From Fennellomyces sp. T-0311 (Eukaryota; Mucoromycota; Mucoromycetes; Mucorales; Lichtheimiaceae): a DNA stretch of 64,000 bases. The stretch is taken from the NCBI GenBank assembly GCA_025266875.1, contig JALLLT010000004.1:1302001-1366000 (forward strand), written 5' to 3'. This document shows positions 6,460 through 37,474 of this stretch, one piece after another (position 1 is the stretch's first letter; each line of letters starts with the position of its first letter). Both the position numbers and the translations under genes were made by a program. The notes beneath the pieces are model-generated. The model searched no databases and was not told where the DNA came from. It saw only the letters and a list, made by a program, of their open reading frames with translations.

Positions 6460-8131
6460 AGCTATCTTGTCCTGAAACAAGTTTGTAAAGGCTCCGAAAA
6501 GAACAAGACCCAAAGTGATAAAAATATTGATGACTCTCAGGAAAACAGCGGTAGGTGTACTTAGGTAATGTACCGTCAATTATCTTTAAAACTGACTTGC
6601 TGAAGACGGGTCAACTGCCAAGCTCGAGAACGACGTGTCCACGGCGCACACAACTGAAGAACGGCTGGAGTGGCACCCAATCCATCACCCAAGACTACCA
6701 ATCACCACACCTCCCCGCTACTTTGTCAACAAGCGCGGTGATGTATGCTCGGATGCTACTGGAGAGCACAAGCTATTGCAGAGGATGAAAGGAAAAAATA
6801 CTCCTAATTACGGACTTTCTGTCTCCAAAAACAAGAAGACCACCTTCAAATTGGAGGAAATGATGGTGTACACCTTCTTGGATCCGCAGTTCGACAGCGA
6901 TAAGCAGTACATATTCCACAAAGACGGGCAACAGGAGAATTGTGCATTGGACAACCTGACTGTATGCGACTTGCCTACGTTGCAGCAGCTGGAAATCGAA
7001 AGGCTGGAGAATCTACATCAGGGCACAAAATACATGGTTGTCAGGAACGCACACGACGCTTTAACATTCGAACGTTACCTTGTCTCGGACAATGGGGATG
7101 TTTACTCTCTCATATCACGAAGACATCTCCGTCCCCGCGTAAACGAGTACGGATATCAGATTGTTGAGCTCTGTCCCGATATCGACATTGATACAGAAAA
7201 AGCAAGAAGTAAGCGACACACCTTGCAAGTACACAGCATCGTGATACAGTCTTTCGAGAGGCGTCGGGGGAAGAATCTCCAGACAGATCACATCAACGGT
7301 GAAAAGTTGGACAATTCTCTCAAGAATCTCGCGTTCGTTACCCGTTCCGAAAATGCAAGTCGAGCGTATGGTCCAACACAAACCACAGCACGAAATATGC
7401 GCAAAGAGCAAGGAAACGGACCGAGAAAAGTTACAACGCGGCCATTACCACCGGCCACTGAAGAGACAAAATGGAAGTCAGTTGGTGTGCTTCCATGGAA
7501 TGGACGGTCGTTCAGTCGATACGAAGTGTCGAACATGGGCCACGTTCGCAAGGTAGACAACTTTACACTCCTCAACTTGCACTGGATGCCGAATGGGTAT
7601 ATCTATGTGCACATGTATCTTGATAAAAGGGATTTGAAAAGCAAAGACTTGGCCACAACAAGCGTTCGTCAACATTCAAAGGTGTCTATATCCCGCCTTG
7701 TGGCAAAGGCGTTCGTTGACGGTTATAGTGAAGAGCAAAATGCTGTCAAGCACCTTAACGGAGACCGGCAGGACAATCGCGCGCAGAATTTGAAATGGGT
7801 TTCCAAGTGCTGTAGCTCCCTCCAGAGGACTTCCCGTAAAGTGGTTGCGTCACTTGTGGATGACCCAACTATACAAAAGGAATTTCCATCTATATCAAAG
7901 GCAGAGCGTGAGCTACGAAAGTGTATAGGATATCTGAGGCTTCAGTTCTCTGAAACGACTTTCGGAGGGATGTTGTTTGGAATGGCGAAACACGAGCAGC
8001 ATACCTTCAAATATTTTAATTCTTGGTACAAATGGTTAATAAATTTAGTGCACGCACAAAGAAGCAAGCTGATAAATCGAGATTTACATCGAAATCGACG
8101 TTGGACATTTTATAATATCAGAGTTTTCTAG
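6460..8131 (+). CDS. Triple NUMOD4/HNH-like protein, copy 1 (5' end unresolved)
   Basis: Protein related to homing-type HNH endonucleases. The main exon starts at 6606 after a ...GAAG acceptor. A preceding exon ends at 6550 (GT donor at 6551) and lies within 6460-6550; the junction is phase 1, as in the other two copies. No initiator ATG was identified upstream. Three tandem units follow. Each has a Tyr/Phe-x-Val-Ser-type strand with Gly, then an H-x-(N/D)-G...N...NL box: YIFHKDG at about 6918, TDHINGEKLDN at about 7285, and VKHLNGDRQDN at about 7745. The third unit begins with a clear NUMOD4 signature, YEVSNMGHVR, near 7518. A NUMOD1-like helix-turn-helix (KEFPSISKAERELR) follows at about 7880. 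The last 40 codons look frameshifted: another frame from 7954 to 8019 restores the family ending. Whether it is catalytically active is unknown. It lies between two transporter paralogues and ends 84 nt from the stop of the second, tail to tail. Confidence 0.75.
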
Positions 8132-8215
8132 TGGTTACTCTACGTGACGAACCAGAAAAGACGAAAAAACCGAAACAATGAATGAATTTCTGCACTTGGC
8201 ATTATAACAAACATA

Positions 8216-9992
8216 CTAAATTTTTGAGAAAACCCTTTTGGCAACCAATAACTTGATGGACATCAATACGAGAACCCCAGCAAGATAACCAAATCCTGTA
8301 AACATTTCGTAGCTGAAAAATGGTGCTGCCGAAACCTTCTGTTCAATGGCACCGGCTGCGTTGGGTCCGAACATTGAGAGCGTAGTCAAAAGCAGGAATG
8401 CCGAGAATCCAGACTGAAACTTATCAATGCCGGTGATGATTACTGTGATTGCAGGAGCTTAGGTGGACTTGAGTATTTTTTCTTGGCTTCCTTTATGTCA
8501 AAAAGCTTACTCAATGTTAAAAATGCGGCGCCAAAGAATCCAAAAATGGCTGCAAATGCCATTAACGGTGCGTAGCTGGCTGAAAAGGTCCAGAGTAATA
8601 AGCAGCTTAAGGAACTTATGGCTCCATATATAATGACCGTGTTGATATGCCCTATATGGTCAGCTATAAGCCTTTAGATTATAAGATACTGTTAGATGTA
8701 ACAAAGCGGCAGAATGAGGCTGATATGGATTACCCAGCGATTAAACGTCCCGCGAGACTCATGCCTGAAGCCACAGATATCAAAGCAGAACCGTGCGTTG
8801 ATGATAACTTGAGGTATGTTGCGTGTGCTAATATCAATATCTGCGTTAACCATAATATCATATTGTATTCGTTGAAGTATAGGTCACCTGGGAGATAGAA
8901 AAATGGGACGTAGTAAGCACCTTCCATAAATATGTCCGTAAGGCACCATAGTAGAAATATGGGGCTTCGCAGCATATCAAACTGAAACACCTCTTTTAAC
9001 TTTGGCTTTTCTTTTTTGCTGTTGTCTCTTTCTTTGAATAAAATACAGGAGAGTGCACCAGTCACCAGCATGATCAAGCCTAGAATTCTATAACACCTGC
9101 AGACATCGTTAATAATTAAGCTTAATTTTCGGTCTAAACTATTTACCAACGGACATCAAGTTGAGTATTCAATGTTGTCATCAGCAAAGGCATGATGAAT
9201 GCCCCGATAGACGGACCGGTGGATGCAATCCCGAGTGCAATTCCCTGTCGCTTATCGAACCATTGTGGTACAACACTCATTGCAATCTACGTTGAGCGAC
9301 ATGTCAGATTATCTATGATTCCTTTTCGTATAGAAAATACTTGCGTAAAATATAATTGATGAACCCATTCCATAAAGAACACCCTGAGTAAGATATAGGT
9401 GCCAAATCTGTCGTTACTTATTACCGTTAAATCGGGCGATCACCGGCATATCATTGCTTACTTGCGTGCTCCAACTGGCTGCTTCGAGACCTATAACACA
9501 TAAACTTACTGCAATCGCTATTACTAGTCGAATATGCATCAATGCCAGCAAAAGTTGAGCCACGGGCCCAAATGAATTCAAGATAATATTTGCAATGGTG
9601 CCAACAAATGATAGCTGAAATGTAGAGTTCTTAAAGTAATGTTGATCATAATGGTCTTGCATTACTCCTGTATTGCAGTGTAAGAAAAGTATGTTAAAAT
9701 GAATGCAAAGTATACTGAAGCATCATTTAAGCGTACCCCTAAATAACATCAGAATATGTAATTAGTATCGTTGATTGAGGTTGTTATTGAGGAAATACCA
9801 TGATTGTGCTATCCCTTGTCCAGCAACTTGGATCAGACATGCAGCTGCTACAATCACCCATCCATATCCACCATCAGGAACTACAAAAGTAGTTTTTTCG
9901 TCGGCCTCTTCACTGTGCTCATTGATTGTTGGCTTGTAGGCTATATCATCCGTTACTGCTGTATCCAACTTTTCATCAAGAGTTCGTTCCAT
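8216..9992 (-). CDS. Monocarboxylate transporter-like MFS protein (copy 2)
   Basis: Paralogue of the gene at 2242-4140. It starts MERTLDEKLDTAVTDDIAYK at 9992 and has the MCT signature VPDGGYGWVIVAAACLIQV. Later exons encode STFQLSFVGTIANIILNSFG, ILGLIMLVTGALSCILFKER with a charged central loop, and FQFDMLRSPIFLLWCLTDIF. It ends LLVAKRVFSKI before the TAG at 8216. Intron positions match copy 1, including one after the YVPFFYLP segment, so the pair arose by duplication after the introns were in place. It is predicted to be a 12-helix proton-coupled carboxylate or related porter. The two genes share orientation and are separated only by HNH copy 1 and about 2.4 kb of AT-rich DNA. Exon edges in the middle were placed by eye. 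Confidence 0.82.
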
Positions 9993-11679
9993 GGGGTATT
10001 AAAAGGAGAAAAGAAGGGAGAAAATACTGTAACAGCATCTCGCATAAAGCTGTAATCTATTGTAATGCGCTTTCATAGTAGCAGTCTGGATTGAGAATTG
10101 AGACGGCAAATATTAATAGTACGTAAGGATCGTGATTCTTCTCAGATAAAACGACGATCCCAGCAAGATCTCCTTTTTTTTCTACATCCGCACAGTTTAA
10201 GCTTTTTATATTCCTAGTTTCTGCAATGTCTACAACAGACGATTCACATATCGCATAGCATAGCATAACGTATAAACATTTTAGATTTCGCTATGGAAAA
10301 ATAACACAAAGCTATCATATTTTACCAGACTAATATCTCAAGTGGTAATTCCCATACGAACATAGTAAACGGATCACTCATAGCTTGTTTAAGTCTGATA
10401 TTTAAGTATTTAATCATCTAAAATGTTCTGTATATCTAATTAAAGTCAGCTCTTTCCTTTTGCGACATTCCAAGGTGCAAAAACTTTGCTTCAGAGTGCC
10501 ACGCCTTGAGATAGCCGTGTGCATCTTTATATATACTTTTATTTACTAGAAAATTCAACATGATCATTGCATTTTATCATGTGTCTGAGATTGTTGTTTA
10601 TCTTCGTTCTTATAAACAATATATCCGAAGTGCTTGCTTTCTTACTGCTCCATGTTCCACTGTCTTCACAGACAATGCTACAAACGTTTTGGCATCAATC
10701 CTTCTGCAAGCAAATTCGTAGCACTCAAAGGTCAATATATTTTTGGATTAAATGAGACTCACCTGTCAATTGCATTTGAGGTGGCAAAAAGTAGTTTACA
10801 CAGGTCCAAAGGCGCGCGATTGACTGTGATTACACATATAAGTACATTTATGTCCACATTGACTATCTTTGTATTTTACTGATATGTAAGTATTTATCAA
10901 CCAATTTAATGTCTGACGCACTAATCATAAAAATATTTCTTTTGTATATAAGCATGGTCACAGCAATTCATGGAAGCAAGTACATGTATCAACAAGCAAA
11001 TATTCTATTGCGGTCCACCATAATTAAGAACTTTATTTGAATTTCCTCGGGGAGAGGTCTTAGTCTGACGCCGTGCATGAATGAATACTAACCCCGGCGC
11101 AGGTGTGATTACGATAACAAGGTTGTGTATGATAATTATGAACCAGTAGTTTTTTATCGTAACCCTTGATTGGACCAGATAATATTTTCTTACAGAGATC
11201 GTCATCGCATACCTCAAAACAGCTTAATACATACAATCTAAGCCCAAGGAAGTGCAGTGAGAAAAGTACAGCTATAAGCGCGATAGTATCAGCACTTTTG
11301 TCCCTGTTCCCGGAACACACTAATTCAGTATTAAATTTAATTTCGGCTCGGATGCCCATTTAAAAGAGTGAACTTACTCTTATAACCGGAAAAAGGAAGT
11401 TTATCAGTTCTTATCCAACCACTTTATTCTTAAAGTAACCGATCACCTTCAAACACCGACGAACGGAGATCATGTTTCGTCCATAGCCCACAATCACCGC
11501 AAAAAGATACACACATGTGGTAACTTATACAATCAAGAACCATTTTTGCTGAAAGTTTCACACTAATATATACACTTTGATAGAAATATTACAATCCAAT
11601 CATACTTTCGTCTTTTAAAGTTAATTGCTCCGATCACTCCAGACCATCATAATCCAAGGATCTTCAGGGTCTCATTTAA
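9993..11679. other. Intergenic region upstream of transporter copy 2
   Basis: Holds the presumed promoter of the transporter starting at 9992 and the 3' flank of ALG6. Short open frames occur on both strands. None has recognisable motifs or plausible splice partners, and I see no repeats. Confidence 0.35.
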
Positions 11680-13582
11680 TTAAGCTGATTTGAGCTTGGT
11701 AGCTGCGCCAAACACAGTTTGGCCAGCAACAAATTGCTGATATGTAAAGTATACGAAGATAAGTACAAAGTATCCGCAGCTGATTGCAGCGTTGAGGACC
11801 GTGTACAAATCTGGCCATTGCTCAGGAGGAGCCACATAGTACTCAGCGGCATGCCAGGCCAGTAAAGAGCCGTAAATTGCCTGGATAAGACATGTGTCAG
11901 CAACGCACTCAATCCATTCAGCTTTCCAATATCCATACCCATTTGATAGACTTTCTGCATCCGGATAACCCACCAAGCCAATTCCAAAGGAAGGTGACTG
12001 CAAAGTACGGTGTACTCAAGCCCTCCCGTTTCAAAAGTGGGAACATACTATATTTCAAAGCTTTAGCGTGGATGATCCTATACTTGCAGCCAAAACTTAC
12101 CTGAACATTGCGACATTCATAAACACCTCTACAGCATCAGGTTCTTCACTCATGATCAATAGGATGGGAAGAGCAGGTAATAGGATCGACTTCTCATGAA
12201 CCTGGAACGAAAATAGGAAAAAGGCGAGCGAAGTGTTCACTAGGGCATAGCCAAAGCGTTTGCGTGAGGGTGCCCGGCCTAGATGTATGTTGATCGGCAA
12301 GATCGCTGCTAGAGTGGCACAAAGGCTAATTACAACAATAAGCACACACACACATACTCCCTGTTTTCATTTATATGTCTTCACCTGAGACGTACAGTCG
12401 ACTGTAGGCTAAGCACATTGCGCAGTTTGATTACCACGTTCAGAGCACACCATACATTCGCCACCTTATCTTCATATAAACCACGGGCGACAGGAAATAC
12501 GCGATGAACGATTTGCAATAGATCCTCCACGGAAGTAATCCAAGGATACAGCATGAGTGCAAAAGTGGCAATGACTGTAACACCTAACTTGACGAACAGC
12601 AACATGCTACTTCGAGTGAGAAGCGATCAAATGATTGAAGAATATCATACCCATCCAGCTTTTTTGGCGTAGAAATACACACTCCGAGTAGAAATCCAAA
12701 GACGGAGGGAGCATAGTACAGTGCCATCTGCTTGAAGCCAAGGGCCAAACAAAAGAATACTGATCCAAGTACGTAGTACTTTATGAGATAGCAATTGATC
12801 GCCCAGAGTGCTAGACCAAGCATCACGCTGTTAAACCTGCAATATTCCGAGTTAATACAAGAAATTCCAGAGTAAACTAGCACCTATGCTTACTGAAAGT
12901 GTCCGTGATCAATAATAATGAGTCCCGGTTGCATTAGGATAAGCAGGACAACCAGATACTAATCCCTTCCCATTAACATATGAATATATCCTAGCAAAAC
13001 AGTGACCCACCTTCTTTTGCTGTTCAGGATACACGATACGACCGAAGCACCATACTGCGGGAATGTAGATCAATGCTTCCGAAACGGCCACAGTCGCACG
13101 CATAAAAAACTTGCTGTTGGGCGATTCGTATCCACGCGACGCGTCCAACGCGAACCAACTCGGGTTAATTAATAGTCCACTGCATCCATTGTCAGTCGTG
13201 CCAAAGTGACGTTTGTTTGCCTTACTTGCATATATCCACAGAGCCAGCTATGAAACGCAGTCAACGGCGGGTAGTCTAAACCCCACCAGTCCAGATCGTA
13301 GGTATACCACTTTGAGGGAGGCAAGCCATTCGTAATTTCCATCCAGTGCCGTTGAGCCTCATAGTCGCCATACATTGGGGGTGTGTTGAATCCTTTGTAG
13401 GCGAGGCGTTCAGTTCAAAGGCGCACGGGTCTCATTAAAATAAATAACCAACCAGAATAAGGATTCAGCGAAACGATCCATCGGATGAGTAAAGGAAATA
13501 AAGTACAGATGAGAGGGATTGTCCACGCGGTCTGTGGAGTTGTCAGGAGTTGCAGCCATCGGGCTGCTGGACCTTGCTCCAT
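11680..13582 (-). CDS. ALG6: Dolichyl-P-Glc:Man9GlcNAc2-PP-dolichol alpha-1,3-glucosyltransferase
   Basis: ER-membrane glucosyltransferase that adds the first glucose to the lipid-linked N-glycan precursor, using dolichyl-phosphate glucose. It starts [13 protein letters not shown] at 13582, and several short introns divide the frame. Family landmarks appear in order: [14 protein letters not shown], the luminal [12 protein letters not shown] motif, a SRGYES motif, the DHGHFQFN motif split by an intron, [19 protein letters not shown], the [13 protein letters not shown] motif, and [17 protein letters not shown]. Multiple hydrophobic helices fill the rest, and the end is GAATKLKSA before the TAA at 11680. 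ALG8 is the closest alternative. NVWCALN and the overall order favour ALG6, but ALG8 shares several motifs. It is divergently arranged with the DNA polymerase at 14057, with 474 bp between starts. Confidence 0.85.
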
Positions 13583-14056
13583 GACGTTCCTGGAAAGTTT
13601 CTAAGCAACGTGTGGCACTGATAAAATGCGAAATGCACTTTTATAATGACTCCGAAACAAAGGCGAGTCTGTTGGCGTGTCACTCACATAACACCCCTCC
13701 CATCATACTTAACATTTACCCAAGATACGCACATTGTCTTAGGTTAAATGCCAATGATGGTTTAGAGTTTCAGAAATAGGCACTTGCAACAATGACAGTG
13801 TACATACGCTGCGTATCTGAGAATATGTTGTCATCACTAAGCTCTGGATAAGCATTTGAAGTGGGCAGGTACCATATTCCATATAACGTGCGCTACTCTC
13901 CTTCTGACTCTCTAATATAAGTAGGTTTTTTGTATAATTTATTTATACCTTCCACGCTGATTTTTCGACTTTTTTCTTTGTGTTGGTGATGCGTAGCAAC
14001 TGACAACAGTTGGAGCAGCAATTAATCAGGCTTTCTTAACTGAAACATATCAAAAC

Positions 14057-16372
14057 ATGGGAAAAGAACGGCACGTTTACCTTCGTCTCCATCATATGAG
14101 ATTCTTTCTTCTCTCAATCAAGCTTTCCAGCGATTTGGACCTTACGATCCGTAATCTGATCAAGGATCATGGACATTCAGTAATTAATTCGGCTGAACAT
14201 GCCGACTACATTGTGACATGTCTGAGGAGCCCGGATCGGATCTCGCGCCATGTGAAGGTACCTTACCTATATGCTGCGCAAAGTTCAAGTTTGTAACATG
14301 ATGTTTATTTATGGTAGCACACTACACCTGTTGTCCACACAGACTGGTTTACCAAAGAGGCCATGAATGAGGACCAGCTGAAGGCGCACACTATTGCCCT
14401 GAAATGTAAGAAGCGCAAGATTGAGTCACCATCACCGCCACCACCAGCAACGATGAAGGCAGAAGTGATTGCTCTTTCGTCAGAAGACGAACAACAAACA
14501 TTGCCTCGTCAAGTACGCTCCTGGGACCATTTGCAGGAAACATTCGCCAAACATGGATGTAAGGTTACACCACGTATGGTCATTGCTGGTCATCGACCAG
14601 TGCCCACCCTTAAGTAAAGTATTCACCTTCCATTGTAAACAACGCATGGCACTTAATCTTTTTTTCGGCAAAGTAGAAAGGAAGAGAGCTATCAGACGAC
14701 TACAACCACTGGACAATCCACTTCTCTTGAGCGATTCTCTGATTTTAATTTCACGGAGGCTGATACTACAGATGATGAAAAAGTGAAAGAAGAAACCCTC
14801 AATTTTAGTTCCCAAGAAACTGTGGAGAAGCTGGGAGTCTATGCTTGTCAGAGACAATGCGACTGGAATCCATTCAACAAACCCATTGTTGAATTACTTG
14901 AGTTTCTGGAATACGCTCGAGAACTGCAAGGTAATTTTAGTGACGGAATTTGCATTAGAAGGATAGTAGTAATAGTCTACCAGGAGATCCAATGAATAGC
15001 CGAAGCTACCATATCGCAGCTAATGTAAGTTCATTTTTCAAGCGTCGCTGCAATTTTATTTATATGTACCATTCTGTAATATACTAGTCAATCCGGGTTT
15101 GTAGCTAGCTCAGTACATGTGCTAGCCACACCATTATTCTGACGTGAAGAAAACTGTAGGGGTATCCCAAGAAGATTAAGTCAGCAGCTCAAGTACAAAA
15201 GCTACATGGTATCGGTCAAAAAACAAGTCGCATAGTGAGTATTCGAATGACTGGTCGTCTATATATGAGCTTATCAAACTAATGGACTACTAAATATATC
15301 GGTAGATTGCGGATTTCCTAAAAAACGGCTGTGTTGACGAAATTGGTGAGTGCAAAAGCTATGCTTAAGTACACTTTGTGCGCGCTTCACTCATGGCAAG
15401 GAGCAATAGAGTTGCTGAAGAAAGATCCAGATTTTAAAGTACTTGATACTTTCTATAATGTTCACGGTGAGAAAATATACAGCACACAGGCAAAGATAGC
15501 AAATTTAATATTGATCTAGGCGCTGGCGCTTACACCGCCAGAGAGTGGCATCGAAAAGGATACCGAACCCTTGACGATGTCTTCGTCAATGCAAAACTTT
15601 CGAAAGATCAAAAGATAGGGATCAAGTACTACGATGACTTTCGGAAAAAGTAAGCATGTTCTTTCCTTTATGCAGCATACATGTGTTTACATTTTGAAGG
15701 ATCCCGCGCATAGAAGTTGAGGAGATTTGGAAGAGTGTCGTAGGCATCTTGGATGTCCACTTTCCTGGTTCACAAAGTACCATTTGCGGTAGCTATCGGT
15801 ATATGGTCACAGTTATATTAATGATTGCGTATTATTAACTCGAAACTAGGCGCGGAAGTTTTGAATCAAGTGATGTGGACATCGTCATCACTCATAAGGA
15901 CGGTTCAGTAACGTCGAGTCTGCTCCAGCGATTGCTCGAAATACTTAAAGAAGAAAGTAAGTTTGCTCATTTGTTTTCACTACTTTCGTTTATCTCACTT
16001 TGATATGCAGAGCTGTTGGTGGAAATCATCAGTCTAGGATCTGAATGTCAGCTTCGAGAGGGTGATGACGAACACCTGCGACCACATCAGGCATTGTGCA
16101 TATGGAAACAGCCAAGAAGTTCTATCTTTCGACGAGTTGACCTTGTTGTGTCACCGTATGAGAACTATCCAGTTGCAATTCTTGCTTGGACCGGATCAAA
16201 GCACTTTGAACGCAGCATTCGGCTGTATGCTAAAAAGGTCATGAACATCAAAGTTTCTTCTCACGGGTTCTATTCAAGAGCTACTCAGCACAAGATACCA
16301 GTCAAGAGCGAACGTCATGCATTTGAGATATTGAATCTCAAGTGGTTGGAACCGAATCAACGCAATTGCTAG
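14057..16372 (+). CDS. X-family DNA polymerase with BRCT domain (Pol mu/Pol4-like)
   Basis: Gap-filling DNA polymerase of family X, expected to act in non-homologous end joining in the nucleus. I could join about eleven exons without a frame break. The order is a BRCT domain (LTIRNLIKDHGHSVINSAEH, then TPVVHTDWFTKEAM), a Ser/Thr/acid linker, the 8-kDa domain (NPFNKPIVELLEFLEYAREL; KLHGIGQKTSRI|IADFLKNG), the fingers helix-hairpin-helix (GAGAYTAREWHRKGYRTLDD), and the palm motif CGSYRRGSFESSDVDIVITH with the two catalytic Asp in DVD. The third Asp is in RRVDLVVSP. Then comes AWTGSKHFERSIRLYAK and the end LKWLEPNQRNC. The WTGS and SHGF segments resemble vertebrate Pol mu and TdT more than Pol beta. 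At the position of the dRP-lyase lysine of Pol beta (K72) there is an Ile. The gene is intact and divergent from ALG6. Confidence 0.9.
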
Positions 16373-16851
16373 TTAAAATAATCAAATATATATCTCTATA
16401 ATCTTACATTACACGATATTATTACCACAATAAGCATTTCCTTGTTCTGTGTACTGGATACGTTACGTACCTGCCATAGCTGCTTAATAACTCTTTATGA
16501 TTTTGTAACTCCATTCACAACCTGCACGTTATTTTGGCTGGCCTGAAGTAGCTGTGCGTGATGCAAGTGAATGAACAACGAAGCTAGTCTCCCTGTCCTA
16601 CCTAAGCAGCCTATAACATGTTTTGCTACGCTATCGAAAACTGATAATGCACGTTGCGCATTATGCTTTCAAAAGAGTGATATTATTTGCTTTGGGTAAT
16701 AGACGGTTTCCACATGCGCAATGCGTTATGTATTTACGGCGACAAACATACTCTCCATTATTTTAAAGGTGCAGCAACCAAACAAATCCAACTAATAATG
16801 ACAGCCAATCGGATGTTCATATCAGTAAAGTGATGAAAGAATAGCAGGTTG
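16373..16851. other. Downstream flank of the DNA polymerase
   Basis: AT-rich, non-coding as far as I can see. It contains the 3' end signals of the polymerase gene and no recognisable repeat. Confidence 0.35.
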
Positions 16852-17277: not shown

Positions 17278-17340
17278 AATTTCGCAATATGGATCTCCAC
17301 TGGAGCTAGAGCTTGCACTTCAAGCCGGGGGAGGGAGAAT

Positions 17341-20823: not shown

Positions 20824-22476
20824 ATGACTAGCTCCATCCCAAAAGAGTCCATTTCAAATATGAAAAAACCTGATGACTCAAATGCTGCGGCCCAGCGATC
20901 TTCAGGTACGCAGTGAAAAAATGACATCAGCAAAGTCATTCCATGCTAAGGCTGTGATCTATGTAGAAGCCAAAGAATGGGAAAAAAAGTCTGTCGAACT
21001 AGGCAGCAAAAATAAGAACGTTCAGAGTAAGTACTGTAAATAAGCGAGGAATTCACTCTAAGGCCGCGCTATATAGATACACCTGCACCTAAATACGAAG
21101 ATGACCCTTCCACAGCCGAAGAACAGGAATATCATCCAATCCATCACCCAAGACTACCAATCACCACCCCTCCCCGCTACTTTGTCAACAAGCGCGGTGA
21201 TGTATGCTCGGATGCCACTGGAAAACGCAGGCCACTGCAGAAGATGAAAGGAAAAAATATTCCCAGTTATGTACTTTCTGTCTCCAAAAACAAAAACACA
21301 CCTATCAAGTTGGAGGAAATCATGGTGTACACCTTCTTGGATCCACAGTTCGACAACGACAAGCAGTACATATTCTACAAAGACGGGCAACAGGAGAATT
21401 GTGCATTGGACAACCTGACTATATGCGACTTGCCTACGTTGCAGCAGCTGGAAATCGAAAGGTTGGAGAATCTACATCAGGACACAAAATACACGGTTGT
21501 CAGAAACGCACACGACACTTTAACATTCGAACGTTACCTTGTCTCGGACAATGGAGATGTTTACTCTCTAAGAAAGCGAAGACACCTCCAGCCATCCAAA
21601 CTGAACAAATACCAAGTGGTTATGCTAACTTCCGATGACAACACAGTCAGGCCTGTAGTCATCACAGTGCACACCATAGTGATACGGTCATTCAGAGGAA
21701 TTCAAGTGGCAGATAGTCGAATCACCTATATCAACGGTGATAAGGGTGACCTATCCCTCGCGAATCTCGAGTACGCCTCGCAATCTGGAACACTTATACG
21801 GGCAAATCTACCGAGCCGAGTTAAAGCACGAAAGCTACAAAATGAGCGAGAGGATGTCCCCGAGAAAGATAAATTACGGCCATTACCACCGATCAGCTAC
21901 CAAACAATTTGGAGATATATCAATGTCCTTCCATGGAATGGGCGATCGTACTGCAGATATCAAGTGTCAAATATGGGCCATGTTCGCAGGGTAGGCGACC
22001 TTGTGCCACTCAAACAGTACATTAATCGCGGATATGTCTGTGTACAACTGTACAGAGATGTGGACAACTGGAATTCGAAGAAAGTACCCGTCGCTGCATG
22101 CACTGTGACTGTATCTCGCATCGTAGCAAAAGCATTCGTTCGTGGTTACAGTAAAACCAAGAGCTCTGTCAAGCACCGTAACGGGGATAGGCAAGATAAT
22201 CGCGCAGAAAACCTGGAATGGGTGGATAGAAAATCCAGCGCTGTCAATCGAAGATCACGCATGGTGAAAGCGTCACTTGTTGATGATCCACGTGACGAAA
22301 AAGAGTTCGAGTCCATATTAAAGGCTGAACGCATGCTCTCTACCTTTCATCTCAGCTATCACGATGCCAAACACAATGGCGAACCTTTTATAAGGGAAGT
22401 TACATGGGACGGCAGGAAACAAAAGGTGTTGTTTCGGATATTCCCATCTGAACTTCAGAGCTTTCAAAGATTATAA
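20824..22476 (+). CDS. Triple NUMOD4/HNH-like protein, copy 2
   Basis: Complete gene model of three exons, 20824-20905, 20967-21026 and 21077-22476, both introns phase 1 with GT-AG ends, giving 513 residues. The N-terminal 60 residues are charged and probably disordered. Unit A (about residues 66-180) is close to copies 1 and 3, but its His box reads FYKDGQQEN (His to Tyr). Unit B (about 184-290) has ITYINGDKGDLSLANL, again lacking the His and the central Asn. Unit C (about 323-430) starts with a NUMOD4 signature, YQVSNMGHVRRV, and keeps the complete box VKHRNGDRQDNRAENL. A NUMOD1-like helix-turn-helix follows (KEFESILKAERML) with the family ending VTWDGRKQKVLFRIF. An in-frame ATG at 20713 would add 37 residues; 20824 is preferred because a similar start occurs in copy 3. 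Function unknown; homing-endonuclease ancestry is the inference. Confidence 0.82.
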
Positions 22477-22641: not shown

Positions 22642-24087
22642 TTACAGTCGAGCCGCCCTACAGTTGGGGCAAGTCATATCCCAACCAGAAATACACTTCG
22701 TATGAAACTGATGACCACACGGCAAAGTGGTGGTGGTATTAAAATCATCCAAGCAAATTGTACATGGGTCGCTCGTGCTAGCTGACAACGGTTTTGATTC
22801 AATTCCCAGTCGCTTCCAAGATGTCTGCGTCGACGGATCATAAAGCTGATAGTGATCCTTCTCAGTAACGCGGAACCAATCCGATCGATAGTGCGTTCCA
22901 TCCGCTTTCAAACCATGAATTCGATATTGGCAATTGTAGAAGCCAACTGTCTCTGGTTTTCCATCGGTGCCGTCGCAAACGGGACATTTCACAGGTGTGT
23001 CGCCAAGCTCGTAAAGTCCGAATCTCTGCTGCGAAATTACGCGATGAGCAGATGTGCACTTGCAGCGTACTTCAATATTGGTTCCTGGAGCACAATACCG
23101 CCCTGTGGCCGCCTTTGCTGCAAATGTCACCTTTTTGCGGGCAGAGATATCTGAGATATCAGCGAATGGTGTGTACAATTCAAAGCTACCACCCATCAAC
23201 CGGACTGTAAGGTTTACCGTGTCGTTACTTTTGATGTAATAGTCCTTCAATAGCCATGTATCCTGTGCCAGTTGCTTCCCTTCAAAGGTGAGACTCTGCT
23301 GCTCTGGAGGAATTCCTTGTTTGTCGTAAATAATATCCTTCAGCTTTTGAATAGGCTGGTCCATTCGGATACGGCAGACAATAGTTTTTCCATCCAGTGC
23401 CTTGACGAAAACAGATGTGGATGGTATGTTGACACGACGAGCTACTAACAGGTGAATAGTAGCGTCATTTTGGATGTTGTAATCAGATAACATGAGTTCG
23501 TCATCCAATTTGGATCCATCGAAAAAGAGACACAATTGGTCTGCGGATAACTTGCTGTCGGTCTTGTTCATAAGCTTTGCCTTGAATTGTCCCACCGTGT
23601 CTCTTTCGCTCATGTCGATCTTGAGAATTTCGTCCCGTTCAGTGACAACCTTGACACTTGTTGCCGTTGGTTTGTTGACTATCTCTTCCATGGCCGGTTT
23701 TTCTAGGCGCTTGCGTCGTCGCTGGACCACCATCACAAACATCTTGGGGGCCTTGATAAATTTGGTATGCAGCTTTTTGGGTCCCTTGACTTGTTCCTTA
23801 GAAGCTACCTCCTTGGAAAAACTGACGGAAAGAGTATCTTTGCGAGATATTTGATTGTACGTCACCACGCGGCCAAAAAGGTTATAGTATTCCATTGACT
23901 TTGTATAGTCATCGATCTCAATGCCATCGACATACAGTCTCCTGCGACTCCGCATATCGCCATAAGCGGTGTTGGCTAGCTCGCTTGTGACTCGGTCCAA
24001 GGTACGTTGCATAGGCTCGTCCCTGCAATAGGGTACGCTCACGGAGAGCCCTGGAAATCCAGCAATAATCACAGGGAATGTCTTCAT
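22642..24087 (-). CDS. Multi-ubiquitin-like-domain RING-H2 protein (putative E3 ligase)
   Basis: Single-exon gene, 481 residues. Residues about 145-217 form a ubiquitin-like domain (LSADQLCLFFDGSKLDDELM). Residues about 225-300 form a second one much closer to ubiquitin (FVKALDGKTIVCRI, IYDKQGIPPEQQSLTFEGKQ), ending RLMGG at 296-300 with a diglycine. The first 90 residues may be a third, divergent ubiquitin fold. A Cys/His-containing middle region (RCKCTSAH, KCPVCDG) follows. The C-terminus is a complete C3H2C3 RING-H2: C442, C445, C457, H459, H462, C465, C473, C476. RING-H2 proteins recruit E2 enzymes, so an E3 ubiquitin ligase is likely. The fused ubiquitin-like chain is unusual and might be a scaffold or an autoinhibitor. 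Divergent from the dehydrogenase at 24745. Confidence 0.82.
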   Translation of the reverse strand: MKTFPVIIAGFPGLSVSVPYCRDEPMQRTLDRVTSELANTAYGDMRSRRRLYVDGIEIDDYTKSMEYYNLFGRVVTYNQISRKDTLSVSFSKEVASKEQVKGPKKLHTKFIKAPKMFVMVVQRRRKRLEKPAMEEIVNKPTATSVKVVTERDEILKIDMSERDTVGQFKAKLMNKTDSKLSADQLCLFFDGSKLDDELMLSDYNIQNDATIHLLVARRVNIPSTSVFVKALDGKTIVCRIRMDQPIQKLKDIIYDKQGIPPEQQSLTFEGKQLAQDTWLLKDYYIKSNDTVNLTVRLMGGSFELYTPFADISDISARKKVTFAAKAATGRYCAPGTNIEVRCKCTSAHRVISQQRFGLYELGDTPVKCPVCDGTDGKPETVGFYNCQYRIHGLKADGTHYRSDWFRVTEKDHYQLYDPSTQTSWKRLGIESKPLSASTSDPCTICLDDFNTTTTLPCGHQFHTKCISGWDMTCPNCRAARL

Positions 24088-24744
24088 TAAACAATACTAA
24101 AATAGATGATAGTAATGAAAGTATCATGTAGGCGTTGCTGCTTTTTATACAAAAGTGGATATCCGTCACATCGACATAAGTATATACTTTCGTGCGCTGA
24201 GCCATAGTTGTTTCTAGATCGAAATTTGCAAATGGCTCAGCAAAAGCAAGCGGTATTACGTGCTCACTTGTACAACTTCAGTTTTCTATAGATTATAATG
24301 CGACCGATCGAGCTTCATCTATCGGATGTATTGTCAGGCTTTCTGTGCCGTTCTTGGACTTAGTTGACGTATTCCGTTTATCTTGCTCTCGTTCGTATAA
24401 TCAAGTCAGTTCTGCGCTTTACTTGTGGCACATGGTCTAGAGACCCCGCTACATACTCTCTAGTTACTACCTGGCCTGGTCAATGGAAACTGGCGCAGCT
24501 ACAAGGAATTCCAAACTAGGAAGTATTCTCTGAGCAGCATTGGGAAGTGTTTCAAAGACGGGGTCACACATTATTCATCAATGTGAATAAGCATTGAAGA
24601 GAATAGTGCGTAATGTATCGTAAACATGACGTTGTTGGCGAACATATCTCAAAGTGACTTCATACTTTAGTGCATTAAATATGGGCATGGGTTTATGACA
24701 CCTCTTTTTCCTGAATAGCTCAGTCAAGAACACCCACGCGCAAA

Positions 24745-26159: not shown

Positions 26160-26505
26160 ATAAACTCGATTTGACAGAAGACAGAGGCTCGCTGGTTCCA
26201 GCTTCGATCGATAGTGATGCACCGTAACCCCCCCCCCCCCGCACAACAGCATTGAACTGGGCCGAATAAATAGTTGACGCGATGCCTAGCATTCGTGGCC
26301 TCAAACACTGGGCAGAAAGAAAACGTGCCAAGTCAAGAGTTGTTTTGGGTGATTACTGCCAATGACTTCTTTAGACCATGCCAATACCTGATTTGGTGAC
26401 GATATGGTGAGAAAGCAGTTGTTGTCAAGCCTTAGCGCAGATTCAGTCTCAGATATTATTTTGACCAAGCAATTGAAGTTGTTTGTTTTTTAAGTCAAGC
26501 GCAAC
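26160..26505. other. Intergenic, dehydrogenase to PPR gene
   Basis: Short non-coding gap that contains a 13-base C homopolymer and the promoter of the PPR gene. Nothing else was recognised. Confidence 0.4.
26228..26240 (+). repeat. C13 homopolymer
   Basis: An uninterrupted run of thirteen C lies 70 bp after the stop of the dehydrogenase. It is conspicuous in an AT-rich region. Its length may be uncertain because homopolymers are error-prone in assemblies. Confidence 0.9.
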
Positions 26506-29502: not shown

Positions 29503-30168
29503 TTGAGAATAGGTCTTTTTGCTGATTGTGTGTCCAAGGTCTCAGAGTCGAGCAATGCGGTGAACGATGGCCTTACTAGCATGGCGTCTGAAAGAGCTAT
29601 CACATGGAGTGACATCCGTGTTGCGCTTTCAAGCCCTTCGTGTATGGGCATCCGTAACCAGCCTATGAAACTGGAGAAGTTTTACAAAGCAATCAACCCA
29701 GGATACGAGAGTTGCTGTCAGTTTAATTCGGATCTGCTCAAAGAAGAGTTTCATGCAACTAGCCATGATGCCGAAGACCTCATTCCCTGCAACGTCTACA
29801 GAGCTAAATTGCTCCACATAGCTCTATGTAATGCAAGACATTCAATGTGCTTAACTTTATGTATTAAGGCTAAAAGCAAGAAAGTGATCGCTTGCCATAC
29901 AACCAGCATCACGAATGATCGTGATCTCAAATGTTTCGAGAATGCAAAGCAGGATATATCTCAAACATTTGTTATGGTATTCCAAGTCTTCTACATGCGC
30001 GAAAGCCGGGCTTGCACAATTTGCGAGACCAAACTGACATTCATGACGGATAGCCGCACGCAAACAGAAACTTGGTCAGAGTGTATACTAATCAGTATAA
30101 GGAGTTACCCAGTTACGTCTGCAATTGCCAACGTATTTCTGTACAGAAAATTTAACGCTGCTTATTGA
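29503..30168 (+). CDS. Orphan reading frame, 221 codons
   Basis: An uninterrupted frame in a gene-poor area. The track start is a TTG; the first internal ATG gives MASERAITWSDIRVALSSPS, about residue 27. It is Cys-rich in two places, GYESCCQFNS and ESRACTICETKLTF. I recognise no family. Its length is unusual for chance in AT-rich DNA, and amino-acid use is not low-complexity. It may be a real orphan gene, an exon of a longer gene, or a transposon remnant. No splice partners were identified with confidence. Confidence 0.3.
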   Translation: MRIGLFADCVSKVSESSNAVNDGLTSMASERAITWSDIRVALSSPSCMGIRNQPMKLEKFYKAINPGYESCCQFNSDLLKEEFHATSHDAEDLIPCNVYRAKLLHIALCNARHSMCLTLCIKAKSKKVIACHTTSITNDRDLKCFENAKQDISQTFVMVFQVFYMRESRACTICETKLTFMTDSRTQTETWSECILISIRSYPVTSAIANVFLYRKFNAAY

Positions 30169-30645
30169 ACAAAACAACAGCTTAAAACCCGAACCATCGA
30201 GGGACGAGGACATATGTACTTCCCCGATTCATTCACCAAATTAGTGAGGGATTTGGGGCTAGCCTCAGATTGTGTAGGTAAGCACATATCGTTTAGTAAA
30301 GTATATCGTGCCATGGTAACTATGTAATCTCTACGTAGTATCGATCCTTTCTCGTGTTTTTTTTCATGGTTTTCCTGAAAATATGTATTACGGAAAAGAC
30401 CACATTGTATATAATTAAAGCTGTACCCCATCCGTACACGAAACATGTAGATAATCGATATTTTTTGTACACTATATATTTTTACATTATTATACAAAGT
30501 AATTAATATTAGAGTTGTACTTGCTATTAGTAAAGGAAGGGAATGGAAAAATAATGAAATGATATACAATGTTTTGCTCTGCACTGCAGGAAACAATTTA
30601 GGTGATGTATCTAAAGTCAGGATGCTATTAAGTGAGAGAAGACAG
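30169..30645. other. Intergenic, AT-rich
   Basis: Between the orphan frame and the 3' end of the ACS permease. AT-rich, with T runs near 30357-30364; no feature recognised. Confidence 0.35.
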
Positions 30646-32819
30646 TTAAGTTAGCCATCGAATATTTCCCAACGCAGCACCGCTTATACTCACGTAATCA
30701 CAGAGCTCTGTACCCTCGCATGCCTTCTTGTATTCTTCAGGGGTCAGATTTTCACGCTTCTTGTTCATACGATGCAAAAGATACTTGAAGAGGCAAGAAA
30801 GCACAATGGCACCAGCCATTAAACCGGCGCAAATTTCGTGACCACGGGTATAGAAAGGACCATCATCGGTACGGTACACTTGACCACCGACCTAACATTA
30901 CAGATGTGAGTTACGCTGCGAGATTTTTTTTTAAAAAAAGTATATCACTTACAGCACCACCAATGTTACCAAGCGACACAATAATAGCGGTAGCAACACC
31001 ACGCTTGGTGTGACCACCAATGTTGTTACTGAACCACGAGAGCATAGCGGGAATCTGGGCAAACACACCGATAGTAGTGATACAGGCGGCGACATACATG
31101 GCAACCATTCCCTTGTGTTTCAGAGTAATAAGCAGAATGTAGCCGATCAAGCCAAGACAGCCGGGAATAGCAAGGTGAAGACCACGCTCATTGTGATGAT
31201 CGGCATGCATAGCCGTGAGAATCGTGGCAACGCAGGCTGTAAATGTGTCAACATTAATTTCCTTTTCCAGAACAAATTGTGATTCAATAATTACCGAAGG
31301 CATATGGAGGAGCAGACATGGCCTGAGCTGTAAGACTTTCGAAACCCATACCCCTAATAATCGTAGGCATGAACATACTCAAGCTGTACAAAGGTGTAAC
31401 AGCACAAATGTAAATCGCCGCATGCATGTAAACTTTCCAATCGGTAAAAGCCATCCAGAATTGCTTCATCGAGAAGTGGGTCTCTGTCGATGGGCCAGCA
31501 TCAACCTTGAGGCGATGAACGATAATTTCACGCTCACGCTCAGTCAAGACTAAGCGAAAAAAAGAATCGGTGTGAATTTTGTGGGATTCTTGTCACCCTG
31601 GGAATGTCACCCTGGGAAAAACCTTACATTTGTTTTTGGTTTCTGGGAAGTCCGGAAGGATGAAGTAGGTCGTGCATGCAAAGACCAAGGTAGGAATGGC
31701 TTCAATGATGAAAATCCATTGCCAACCGTGCAAGCCGCGGATACCTTCCATTTGCATAATGCCATAAGCCTAAAGTATACTCTCCGATCAGTACATTTGT
31801 TCTTTTTGCTGCACTGAAGATAAAATTATAACTCTCTTACCAAGACACCTCCGAAAGCCTATGGTCACACAAAAATAGAAGAACCAATTGTCAATGCTCG
31901 GAATAATAATTAAAATTCAGTATCACTTACACCAGCCAAAGTAGAACAGCCAAAGAAGAATGCCAGTCGAGTGGCCTGTTCCTTACGGGTATACCAAAGC
32001 GTCAAGTAGAAGATAACACCCTATAATCAAGGACCAATTGTTTAATGATATGTGCATCCGTGACATTTGCCTCATGCTTACAGGGAATAGACCAGCCTAT
32101 GTTAGAGATGTAATTAGTTTCTTAGCCTAGTAATTTTTTTTGTTTTGTTTCTACCTCTGTGACACCTAAGAAAAAACGACTTGCGAGAAGGCCGGCACCG
32201 TTGTGGACAGCAGCCATGGCAGCCATGGTCTAAGCAATCATTAGACGTGTGATCTACTACTTGTTCAATTTTATACTTACTGTACCCCACGCGATCATGA
32301 CAATTGAGATCCATTTGCTCGGACCAATCCACTTGAGCATCAAATTCGACGGAACCTCAAAAATAATCTAAGACAGATCATGGAAAAACAACGCGGATCA
32401 GCATGACAAAGTTTCTTCTCCGCGTCCAACCAGATACGCCGAGTCACTATGACTCTTTTAACTTACATAACCGATGAAGAAGATGGAGAGAGACCAATTG
32501 TACTGACTATCGGTAATGTCGATATGCTCGGTCAATCCAGCAATTTTGGCGTTACCTAGAATACTGTCAGAACACAAATTACCTTATTGAGATCAGTCAT
32601 AATCATACCAATATTCACACGATCCAAGAAAGAGCATAAGTACAGAATGCCGACGTATGGAATAATGCGTAAATCAAGCTTCCACAGAAGACGTCTCCAT
32701 TCTTGCGGGGTTGGAGGGATAAAACCACCGTCGCTTACAGATCCTTGTGTACTTTCGACATCGCCTGCAATGACTTGCGACTTCTCGTCGAGCACTTTTT
32801 CCACGGCAGGGGTAGCCAT
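30646..32819 (-). CDS. ACS-family MFS permease (allantoate/nicotinate type)
   Basis: Anion:cation symporter family member of the major facilitator superfamily, related to yeast DAL5 and TNA1, expected in the plasma membrane. It starts MATPAVEKVLDEKSQVIAGD at 32819 and is divided by about nine short introns. Family landmarks in order are LRIIPYVGILYLCSFLDRVN in the first helix, YNWSLSIFFIGY, EVPSNLMLKWIGPSKWI, SRFFLGVTEAGLFPGVIFYL (partly rebuilt across introns), GWQWIFIIEAIPT, the cytosolic loop VLTEREREIIVHRLK, ATAIIVSLGNIGGAV, and the tail RMNKKRENLTPEEYKKACEG. The CSFLDRVN motif and the position of the central loop fit the family. Substrates in the family include allantoate, nicotinate and other carboxylates; none is indicated here. 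Confidence 0.87.
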
Positions 32820-35800
32820 GACAAACTGTAAGAAAGGAAAAAGTGTGCTAATTAAGGTTGTTATGCTCCACGTCTTCTCTTTATATAGTGAAAAAAACCC
32901 CGCACTGCTGAAAATGGACAAGATGATCTGCTCGATCTGGTTTTTTTTCCCTTTGGTCACTGCTGGTCACATGCTCCTGTTGGTTAGAAACGTCCTAGTG
33001 GTGCTACAGTCCGATCGAGGTCCAGCGTGGGGATGTCTGTTATCTCGCTTATCTATCCTAATGCCACTCTATTGGTTATAGCTCATCTCCAGGGGTCGCT
33101 ACTTTTTTTTTCTTTGCCAGACAGATGACTGACTCATATTCTCGGTTGGTGTAGTATCGATTTATTTGTAAATGGCACCACAAACACTTTTTGGCGAAAA
33201 AGAATCTATTTCGCCAAAACGAGGTGAGCCATACCCCACTAATCTTACATTGATACGTAGTATTTCTCCCTGTTTCGTACATAATACTTTCACATACACG
33301 TGATGAATCTGACACCAGAGAATGGACAAATGGTTCGATATATTCTTTATCTAGCCTTCTCTATTTAGTTGCAAAGTAAGAGGATCCTTCTCAGTGTGTA
33401 GGTGTACGACTTGAGAAAGCGACATTTTTTCACACACTCTGCACTGAAATAATCCACCCGCATTATTAGCTACTTTAACTACCCGAATCCCGGCGAGCTC
33501 TGATGCACAATTCGTCGATATTTTGCTTTGTATTACCCCAGCGCGCAATTGCCAATGGTCCACCCCGTTGAATACTAATCCGACTTGTCCAAAAAAAGAG
33601 TGACCCACGTCTGAATAATTTTTTAGGAGATGAGAAAGAAGCAAAAGTGCATACTGCTCATACCGAAGATCCATTGAATGTAACAAGTACATGATCGATC
33701 CCACGCATAACGTATACAAGGAGAGTTACACTTGACGCATCAAAAAAACTGGAACGTACGCCGCTGGCGAATCTTATTTCCTGCTGCACGGTGAAAAAGT
33801 GCTACTTCTGGGACCATTGACAGTAAGCACTTCATACTATATTGGTATCTTGATACGCGTAATATTAGCAGTCGTTTTGAAAACTATTTGAGCACTCCTA
33901 ATCCAGAAGGAGAGCAAGGTTTTCGACACAATAGTAATGCCGACTTTGCTATTTGCAGCTAATATTAGTTACTGGTGTGGTCGATGCTGACTGTACATAT
34001 CAGAAAACTTGGAAAACACACTGTGCGCTTCTAAGTGACCTTCACATTCCCAGTCTAAATGTTATCTGTGGCGCTGTATGGGCTAAGCATTATCTAAGAA
34101 ACATGTGACGGACCACAGATTTGGATATTATCATTAATACCGTGGTAAAGTGCAAAAGTTTACTTTTTATTTGGCAAAACATAAGTATATTTACAATAGC
34201 TATGTGGATCGAAAATTTCCAAGTTAGTTTACATATACAAACTCATATAAACTCTATTAAAAAGCATTCAGGAAATGTACACAGGAAAGTCTTGTGTTAC
34301 TGTACTTGCGTCTTTTTCGTGAGACACTTCGGTCTTGGCCGGTTACAATTCTATGTAGATTTGGCACTTGAAAAGCAAACCTTGCTCTGTTCATCAAGGC
34401 GACTTTTCATATTCGCACGATCAATAGCATTTGCGCATATATGAAACAGCAGCTGACATTAAGACAACAGTAAGCTGGCTTTCAGTAAACGAACCCAGAA
34501 CACCAATTAGGATGGCTTTACAAGCCAGTGAACTTCAAAAGTAGACGAATACCATGTACTTTAGGATTCAGCTGGGTAGAAAAAGTAATATGCAAAGCAG
34601 TGTCTAGCTCTTTGCTTCTGACCAATTCAAAACTGTTACATGGGTGATATGTTGTTCGCAGCATAAATAATAATAGATATACTGCGGCGAAGTGTTCGTT
34701 GGATGAATTATTTAGTTCTGAACAACTGGATTGTCACATGTGCCATCGATAATCGATAACACAAGGGGACTTCCACTATATGCGCTTAATCAAGTTAGCA
34801 GAAAAGAAGTAGACTTTGAAATAGGTTACAAGAATAACTGAAAGATACAGTCATCAATTACAAGATCTGCAGGTGTTTGATGGCTATTTATATATATATT
34901 TGTTATCCGATCGATGGTTGGACGACGCGGTTTAGCGCTTTTATGCACCCTGTAGCGCATTCATTTGTGTACTAAGACTTACTTTATAAGGGGACACTAT
35001 ATCGTCTCATCCGTCTTATCCCGGGTATTTATCTAGACCAGTTGACTATGTATGGACCGGACAATTTACATTAATGCCCGATTGATAGGCACATTTTGCT
35101 CACTTCCTTCGTGATATCTTTTTCTTAATATTTGTACGCACGCAATGCCTTTAATTGACTTCTTTTTGGTATGTATTTCGAGCCCTCCATTTACCCAATA
35201 GGCTTATTATTTTGCGTTTATATAGGTTCGACAATGTTGCAGTGGCCACGTTAAAGCGGATCAATTTCAAGTAGTATATTTACTGTGCGGTATAGGCATT
35301 CGTAAAGAATCTTAACAGAGAATAAATACGCCGAATGGAATGATTGTAGTAACTTGTATATGTTTGCGAACTGTGCGATTATTTGCGGTATAACACCGTG
35401 TATAGTAAGCATTCGTTATCGTGGAGGTCTGTTGCATTGGTATAGGTGAAGAGAGTAGCGAATGCTTCTTATTTTGTTGATGAATAGTTTACTCACTGCA
35501 AAGCTTTTTACATAAAGAGCTGCAGTTAATTCACTAGCTGGTGTGCTTTCGCTGCTGTTAGGTGCGTTTTGAGAGCTATAAACAGTGGAGTATCAATATC
35601 ATTTCTACATTAGAACCATTTTCACTAGGATCTTATTCTATCGGGATTAATGTGGAGTGAGTGATCCTATGAAACTATGCAGCTCGAATCTGAGCTTGTC
35701 CACTTAACTCGGCGTCCTACACAATAAGTTGGTTGATTCGATTGGTCATATGCATGCAGTAGGTAAACAAGAGTCGCTTCTTTCATTCGACCACCACCGT

Positions 35801-35839
35801 GACGTGTTTACTCCTCCTTCTCTCACCTACCACTTTACA
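32820..35839. other. Long gene-poor AT-rich stretch
   Basis: Contains the promoter of the permease and about 3 kb without a convincing gene. Frames of 80-120 codons occur (for example minus 33351-33719, plus 34121-34444) but lack recognisable motifs. A TA dinucleotide run lies near 34889-34899. A sequence resembling one MITE end begins at 35240 without a matching partner. Confidence 0.35.
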
Positions 35840-35920
35840 ATGAGCAACTCCAAAGCTAAGGAGCACACTTCACTAAAAGAAAGCGCTGTGACTGAAAAAG
35901 TTATTCACAAGCAATCATAA
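35840..35920 (+). pseudogene. Candidate first exon of HNH copy 3, closed by TAA
   Basis: The frame MSNSKAKEHTSLKESAVTEK starts at the ATG 35840 after a pyrimidine-rich leader, placed like exon 1 of copy 2. It ends at TAA 35918-35920, immediately before a G|GTAAAT donor that would give the expected phase-1 junction. The stop would truncate a protein made from this ATG. The next in-frame start of the gene is 35972. Confidence 0.4.
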
Positions 35921-35971
35921 GGTAAATCATGCAATTTTGCTGACTGGAACAAGCTCATTGACATCTAGTGA

Positions 35972-37474
35972 ATGCAAGTGGATTCGGTACAGAAAAAAGA
36001 TCAGGCTGTCAACCTAAATACATGTGATAACAAAGCGCACGCTGAGATAGAGACTGGTAAGCGGAGCTAGTGATACCGCGTTCAGCAGTATTAAAATTGG
36101 TTTGCAGAAGACGCGTCCACGACGCACACGACTGAGGAACAGCTGGAGTGGCACCCAATCAGTCACGCAAGATTACCAATTACCACGCCTCCCCGCTACT
36201 TTGTCAACAAACGCGGTGATGTATGCTCGGATGCCACTGGAAAACGCAGGCCACTGCAAAGGACGAAAGGAGTTAATACTCCTAATTACAAACTTCATGT
36301 CTCCAAAAACAAGAAGACCACCTTCAAATTGGAGGAAATCATGGTGTACACCTTCTTGGATCCACAGTTCGACAGACGCCAGCAGTACATATTCCACAAA
36401 GACGGGCAACAGGAGAATTGTGCATTGGACAACCTGACTGTATGCGACTTGCCTAGGTTGCAGCAGCTGGAGAATCTATATCAGGACACAAAATACACGG
36501 TTGTCAGGAACGTACACGACATTTTAACATTCGAACGTTACCTTGTCTCGGACAGTGGGGATGTTTACACTCTCATATCACGAAGACATCTACGTCCCCG
36601 CCTAAACGAGCAAGGATATCAGGTTGTTGAGCTCTGTTCCGATATCGACATTGATGCAGAAAAAGCAAGAAGTAAGCGACACAACATGCAAGTACATAGC
36701 ATCGTGATACAGTCTTTCGAGAGGCGTCGGGGGAAGAATCTCCAGACAGATCACATCAACGGGGAAAAACTGGATAATTCTCTCAAGAACCTCGCATTCG
36801 TTACCCGTTCCGAAAATTTAATTCGAGCGTATGGTCCAACACAAACCACAGCACGAAATATGCGCAAAGAGCAAGGAAACGGACCGAGAAAAGTTACAGT
36901 GCGGCCATTACCACCGGTTACTGAAGAGACAAAATGGAAGCCAGTTGGTGTGCTTCCATGGAACGGACGGTCGTTCAGTCGATACGAAGTGTCGAACATG
37001 GGCCACGTTCGCAAGGTAGACAACTTTACACTCCTCAACTTGCACTGGATGCCGAATGGATATATCTATGTGCACATGTATCTTGATAAAAGGGATTTGA
37101 AAAGCAAAGACTTGGCCACAACAAGCGTTCGTCAATATTCAAAGGTGTCTATATCCCGCCTTGTGGCAAAGGCATTCGTTAACGGTTACAGTGAAGAGCA
37201 AAATGTTGTCAAGCACCTTAACGGAGACCCGCAGGACAATCGCGCGCAGAATTTGAAATGGGTTTCCAAATACTGTAGCTCCCTCCAGAGGACTTCCCGT
37301 AAAGTGGTTGTATCACTTGTGGATGACCCAACTATACAAAAGGAATTTCCATCGAAAAGAAAGGCTAACTCTGGCTTATTCGTCGGTCTCACTCATGTTA
37401 AACCAGGGCAATCCGTCAAGAAAATAGCCAACTGGAATAGCGAGAAAAAGCAAGTCTTAATCGAAGTATTTTAA
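35972..37474 (+). CDS. Triple NUMOD4/HNH-like protein, copy 3
   Basis: Two-exon model, 35972-36056 and 36108-37474, joined in phase 1 (ACT G | AA GAC) with a clean GTAAGC donor and TTTGCAG acceptor, 483 residues. Units A, B and C follow almost the same sequence as copy 1. His/Asn boxes are YIFHKDGQQEN (about 36399), TDHINGEKLDN (about 36747) and VKHLNGDPQDN (about 37207), and the NUMOD4 signature YEVSNMGHVR opens unit C. After QKEFPS (37353) the sequence departs abruptly from copy 1, but the family ending ANWNSEKKQVLIEVF is intact. Compared with copies 1 and 2, unit B lacks the four-residue IERL segment just upstream. A possible upstream exon carries a stop codon, so the N-terminus may be shortened. 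Function unknown. Confidence 0.8.

Follow-up and report, generated by a model that had tools for sequence, protein, structure and literature searches.

How are three nuclear fungal genes to be understood that each encode one HNH-type unit three times over? The question is raised by a 64,000-nucleotide stretch of Fennellomyces sp. T-0311 (contig JALLLT010000004.1, positions 1,302,001 to 1,366,000 of the forward strand; hereafter the window), in which copies 1, 2 and 3 (loci L012, L019 and L009) each encode a protein of three homologous units, termed A, B and C, followed by a tail. The three genes are tentatively assigned to a nuclear multigene family of I-HmuI-type ancestry (NUMOD4 plus HNH_3, His-Me finger). 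The family is larger and stranger than first noted, featuring asymmetric arrays, gene conversion and constraint that persists past the loss of catalysis.

The domain content was examined with Pfam profiles. HNH_3 (PF13392) scored 67.1, 51.5 and 68.2 bits in the three whole proteins against a curated cut-off of 24.8, and NUMOD4 (PF07463) scored 42.4, 34.3 and 46.3 bits against a cut-off of 23.4. With isolated units, HNH_3 was detected in unit C of 3/3 proteins, unit B of 2/3 and unit A of 0/3; units A and B were nevertheless both matched to NUMOD4/HNH, unit B via Pfam and unit A via structure, and the His-Me finger fold of I-HmuI is predicted for the window family by structural modelling. A sequence-only reading of the window had noted three NUMOD4/HNH_3-like units in tandem in intron-containing nuclear genes; this observation is confirmed as real, the introns being short. 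The same reading took the C-terminal tail as NUMOD1-like, which was not upheld, as NUMOD1 (PF07453) gave no match in the three proteins up to E 10, nor in their last thirds up to E 1.

Three units do not amount to three nucleases. The catalytic tetrad D74/H75/N87/N96 of I-HmuI was positioned from the 1u3e_M alignment and counted in 41 aligned family proteins. Unit A held the full tetrad in 0/41, with never D or N at position 74 and never N at 96, and unit C also in 0/41, with D74 in one protein and N96 in three but never both; H75 is kept without the metal ligands in unit A of 33/41 and unit C of 38/41. Unit B is complete in 11/41 (L009-L018 and L031) and in 3/3 related proteins from European Nucleotide Archive (ENA) contigs, so that the four positions are invariant across 14 live rows, in which 28 of the 112 unit-B columns are invariant. 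In the other 30 of the 41 long open frames the tetrad is incomplete. The earlier assumption of three nuclease units per protein thus fails. Among the window copies, unit B is complete in copies 1 and 3, whereas it reads T-Y-N-T in copy 2, which is dead in all three units. In an unrooted tree of 44 rows, the distribution of complete unit B calls for four changes; 16 of the dead rows cluster together with support of 97/95.

The three copies are laid out in the window as follows.

6344-6428 and ~6491-6550, forward strand: copy 1, counterparts of exons 1 and 2, borders by comparison with the other copies
6596..8131, forward strand: copy 1 (L012), long-exon open frame
~6596-7021, 7022-7435, 7436-7831 and 7832-8131, forward strand: copy 1, units A, B, C and tail
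7286-7291 (D-H), 7325-7327 (N) and 7352-7354 (N), forward strand: copy 1, complete tetrad of unit B
6604..7915, forward strand: copy 1, core with 92-95% DNA identity to L009, L010 and L011 and no alignment outside it
20824-20905, 20967-21026 and 21077-22476, forward strand: copy 2 (L019), complete in-frame three-exon model
to ~21480, 21481-21882, 21883-22239 and 22240-22476, forward strand: copy 2, units A, B, C and tail
35840..36056, forward strand: copy 3, counterparts of exons 1 and 2 (exon 1 at 35840-35921)
36095..37474, forward strand: copy 3 (L009), long-exon open frame
to ~36484, 36485-36898, 36899-37294 and 37295-37474, forward strand: copy 3, units A, B, C and tail
36749-36754 (D-H), 36788-36790 (N) and 36815-36817 (N), forward strand: copy 3, complete tetrad of unit B

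The common gene plan consists of two short exons and one long exon, as derived from the alignment of one live and one dead group, and is in frame in copy 2. In copy 1 the expected start ATG is replaced by ACG, the exon-1 equivalent is interrupted by an in-frame TGA, and the tail (7832-8131) is out of frame relative to the family. The exon-1 equivalent of copy 3 carries an in-frame TAA one base short of the donor, and an ATG at 35972 in the second exon opens a frame into the long exon (acceptor 36108). No Rfam family, group I introns included, reached its gathering score in the window, and the genes are free-standing.

Three copies in one window had pointed to local or genome-wide expansion, and the genome-wide form was borne out. 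A genome search with copy 3 as query returned 90 matches, hand-grouped into ~60 loci that include the three window copies; 44 of these hold open frames of at least 390 amino acids, and the remainder are broken, short or cut by contig ends. The HNH_3 scan of the genome marked 70 places, all of them inside loci of the triple-unit family when matched by eye, and the NUMOD4 scan marked 17. Two loci depart from the common layout: the 961-amino-acid frame at L055:1826-4708 (+) has a ~480-residue stretch without domain match in place of the second half of unit B, followed by unit C, and the 793-amino-acid frame at L052:1743-4121 (+) has an acidic TDEEEL-type repeat run between the second unit and later units.

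Within a set of 5.8 billion proteins, relatives over most of the length were limited to Fennellomyces proteins and three ENA contigs (2.2-2.7 kb), whose proteins P0003-P0005 show 49-51% identity; as the search was keyed on shared five-residue words, remoter relatives may be missed. None of 25 database matches to copy 3 was identical, the top two reaching 57-58%. NCBI proteins of Fennellomyces sp. T-0311 (P0001, P0008, P0009, P0010 and P0014) are 100% identical to loci of the genome along most or all of each protein, which places the window in this fungus (Mucorales, Lichtheimiaceae). The family profile picked up 13 stretches in bacterial and archaeal genomes, with a single weak partial relative in Nocardia puris. 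In viral contigs, two peptide patterns from the family profile gave 28 stretches, none confirmed as a relative; a search with P0028 gave six, again with none confirmed. The view that the family had not been described agrees with the open-licence literature, in which no description of the triple-unit Fennellomyces family was found. Tandem arrays as such are not peculiar to this fungus; they also occur in a metagenomic four-unit family and are hinted at by giant-virus matches longer than one unit.

Gene conversion has homogenised the cores of several copies. L010 and L011 lie ~42 kb from each other in opposite orientations. Across 1,267 bp of the long exon their identity is 99.2%, yet the 5' parts, final ~100 bases and flanks cannot be aligned; their synonymous divergence (dS) is 0.019 in the core versus 0.61 in the tail. 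L009 and L012 share this core with them and with each other at 92-95% identity, so the four live copies L009-L012 hold a common ~1.3-kb core, 92-99% identical, with unalignable ends. L016 and L014 have the long exon alone in common (92.6% over 1,318 bp), and the first 457 aligned bases of copies 2 and 3 are 86.7% identical, the remainder being far more diverged. In the dead pair L023/L025, dS is 0.00 in units A and B and 0.17 in unit C. Cores that are alike between unalignable ends, together with the dS contrasts, indicate conversion among old paralogs. Other live pairs have gene-sized blocks in common but no flanks, for example L014 and L015 (1,761 bp at 92.8%). Ordinary segmental duplicates are resembled by L023/L025 (3.5 kb) and by L020/L030, the latter with 1.2 kb of downstream flank at 71%. 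A further near-identical dead pair, L024 and L026 (G000:C100:185708-189036), lies as a close inverted pair with 98.5% identity over 1,761 bp.

Selection was assessed in five dead and two live sets with codon-model likelihoods computed over an omega-kappa grid; the dead set L043/L045 consists of two rows, one of them doubled in the likelihood run, and its simulation was left unused. The catalytically dead groups are under purifying selection, with omega of 0.5, 0.5, 0.6, 0.5 and 0.3, each beating omega 1 with twice the log-likelihood difference (2dlnL) from 13.6 to 114.5. The two live sets gave omega of 0.9 (0.7-1.0) and 0.7 (0.5-1.0), indistinguishable from 1 (2dlnL 1.2 and 3.2). Neutral simulation left 5/300 replicates stop-free in the C117 live set and 0/300 in each of three others, the C1 live set and the two larger dead ones, a result weakened by the rows having been picked as open frames.

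How such an array might work is suggested by I-HmuI, a single unit of which holds DNA via its NUMOD parts and nicks with its HNH centre. As the one unit with metal ligands sits between two that lack them, the array is most simply read as a cutter accompanied by two reading heads, with a target that is longer. The explanation we lean towards, with somewhat less than even confidence, is a homing-endonuclease-derived family with two DNA-reading units round one cutter, spread by conversion, most members of which are cleavage-dead and probably DNA binders. One I-HmuI-type unit would have been repeated three times within one protein; units A, C and the tail would grip DNA and lengthen the recognised site, which an intact unit B would nick or cut. 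Repair of the break from another family member would copy the core, and this homing-like conversion may keep the live groups spreading. Most members, having lost the chemistry of unit B, may be kept as DNA-binding proteins, with a role either in regulation or in shielding the target sites of live members. Constraint that persists after the loss of catalysis argues for a retained non-cutting function, most simply DNA binding. An extension, which we consider rather less likely, is that a transition from cleavage to binding is under way in one genome, where live members carry out self-templated conversion, dead paralogs are host-kept three-module binders that perhaps shield sites, and dead-plus-live arrays would then be a general design.

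Several observations weigh against a nuclease-driven family with retained binders. The relative placement of the units in the predicted structure is unreliable (predicted template-modelling score, pTM, of 0.50), and copies 1 and 3 are damaged at their ends. The live-set omega near 1 is also compatible with functionless copies, the omega intervals of two dead sets (0.6-0.8 and 0.4-0.7) partly overlap those of the live sets, and pairwise counts (0.43-0.90 for the C1 and 0.22-0.53 for the C117 live set, mostly 0.3-0.5 between dead rows) show a smaller difference, so that the contrast between live and dead is method-dependent. Conversion also in dead L023/L025 means that a nuclease is not needed for it; copying of the core into decayed relatives is the expected trace of family-directed break repair and equally of ordinary paralogous conversion. 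When the 88 flanks of 44 copies were compared as DNA, sharing was limited to a few pairs, and neither an empty site nor a shared target was found.

The narrow distribution, the ~16 broken or partial loci of ~60 (hand count), the damaged ends in live copies and the near-neutral live-set omega would all suit a purely selfish family of free-standing homing endonucleases that spreads and decays like the WHO elements of yeasts, with dead copies as relics without a host role. This we regard as rather improbable, since the 30 of 41 long frames that lack the full tetrad are open all the same, five dead sets have omega well below 1, and under neutral drift stops would be expected to have arisen in the two larger dead sets (the 0/300 result, for rows chosen as open). 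Slightly less probable again is an ordinary host gene family of old nuclease ancestry, shaped by segmental duplication and paralogous conversion without nuclease-driven copying; the dead pairs L023/L025 and L020/L030 have flanks in common, as normal duplicates do, and conversion reaches dead copies too, but live pairs share gene- or core-sized blocks without flanks, and the retention of the tetrad in 14/14 live-set rows, another organism's proteins included, would fit continued catalysis. Concerning origin only, the array might have been acquired from a giant virus or related element instead of being built up in the fungus. The top structural matches are indeed giant-virus HNH proteins (Klosneuvirus A0A1V0SJK4, at a TM-score of only 0.35), but the 28 pattern matches in viral contigs yielded no confirmed relative, Pfam scanning of 20 other window open frames revealed no viral gene, and the units are too short for a reliable origin tree; acquisition of this kind is the least probable of the alternatives, and distinctly so.

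Adjoining copy 2, the window holds a 484-amino-acid frame (22645-24096, reverse strand) that encodes two ubiquitin-family stretches and, at the C terminus, a RING finger. The 330 bp at 5268-5597, upstream of copy 1, recur at 88% identity on the downstream side of the dead copy L021 and perhaps represent a dispersed repeat. Positions 1-48000, which hold the three copies, are richer in AT, with guanine-cytosine (GC) content mostly 0.38-0.47 and at most 0.49, than the right end (48000-64000; GC 0.46-0.51), which is crowded with DEAD helicase, adaptin, arginyl-tRNA synthetase and FANCI frames.

The change from selfish nuclease to host DNA-binding protein, of which Smad MH1 is one end point, has so far mostly been inferred from end points. 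WhiA is named as another (PMC7282813). Here a single genome with ~60 loci allows live forms to be compared with dead ones, along with their conversion tracts and constraint, so that the order of events becomes testable. A concrete rule also emerges: within a tandem array, a live HNH unit is accompanied by dead ones. That the metagenomic family follows it too suggests that degenerate nuclease units are reading heads that lengthen the target site. If the conjectured transition from cleavage to binding is true, dead-plus-live tandem HNH arrays would be a general design, and the dead paralogs would form a novel type of DNA-binding protein, three-module and sequence-specific.

Among known systems, I-HmuI of Bacillus phage SPO1 (PDB 1U3E; NUMOD4, HNH and a NUMOD-like tail) is alike in fold and chemistry. 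I-HmuI is a single phage unit encoded in an intron, in contrast to the three units, two of them without metal ligands, of the nuclear multigene Fennellomyces family. Smad MH1 and NFI DNA-binding domains resemble the model with low Z, perhaps just through a common arrangement; they are single animal domains with no sequence relation shown. Nearest in behaviour are WHO/HO of yeasts: the WHO elements are free-standing nuclear endonuclease genes with clusters, many pseudogenes, conversion, narrow distribution and one domesticated member, encode an intein-derived protein with a zinc finger, and lie mostly beside FBA1 (PMC7282813). The Fennellomyces family differs in being HNH-type and triple-unit, in having no common neighbour detectable by comparison of flanks at the DNA (not protein) level, and in the absence from the three window proteins, by Pfam, of a LAGLIDADG intein-type endonuclease with zinc finger, HNH_3 and NUMOD4 being found instead.

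Giant-virus HNH endonucleases (Klosneuvirus, Marseillevirus LCMAC101 and others), compared by structure alone, match along much of the predicted model, over 300-530 columns with TM-scores of 0.2-0.35; the 527-amino-acid Klosneuvirus A0A1V0SJK4 aligned at E 1e-22 over 535 columns. Viral single-unit relatives read N-H-N-N in 68/71 distinct parsed domains (89 in total); positions 74 and 75 are biased by the bait word VNHKDENK, and H75 was in addition demanded by the parser; N96, constrained by neither, was found in 69/71. At 80 viral loci found with the metagenomic protein P0025, 87 of 88 unit-bearing open frames held one unit and one held two, which, given the bias introduced by this bait, merely suggests that single units are the rule among viral relatives. 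A NUMOD4-HNH_3-AP2 fusion is mentioned in a report on cryptophyte viruses (PMC12220804).

A parallel to the arrangement itself is offered by the metagenomic family P0025 and P0033-P0041, 10 proteins of about 590-720 amino acids with four tandem HNH units and NUMOD1 tails, although P0025 matches the Fennellomyces family profile at E 7e-20, a distant relation only. Units 1 and 2 bear F or Y at the catalytic His in 10/10 proteins, unit 3 reads D-H-N-N in 10/10, and unit 4 reads N-H-N-N in 9/10 and H-H-N-N in one. Unlike the Fennellomyces proteins, these have four units, with the dead ones first, and NUMOD1 tails; like them, they are tandem arrays in which some units have the catalytic His replaced and others are complete.
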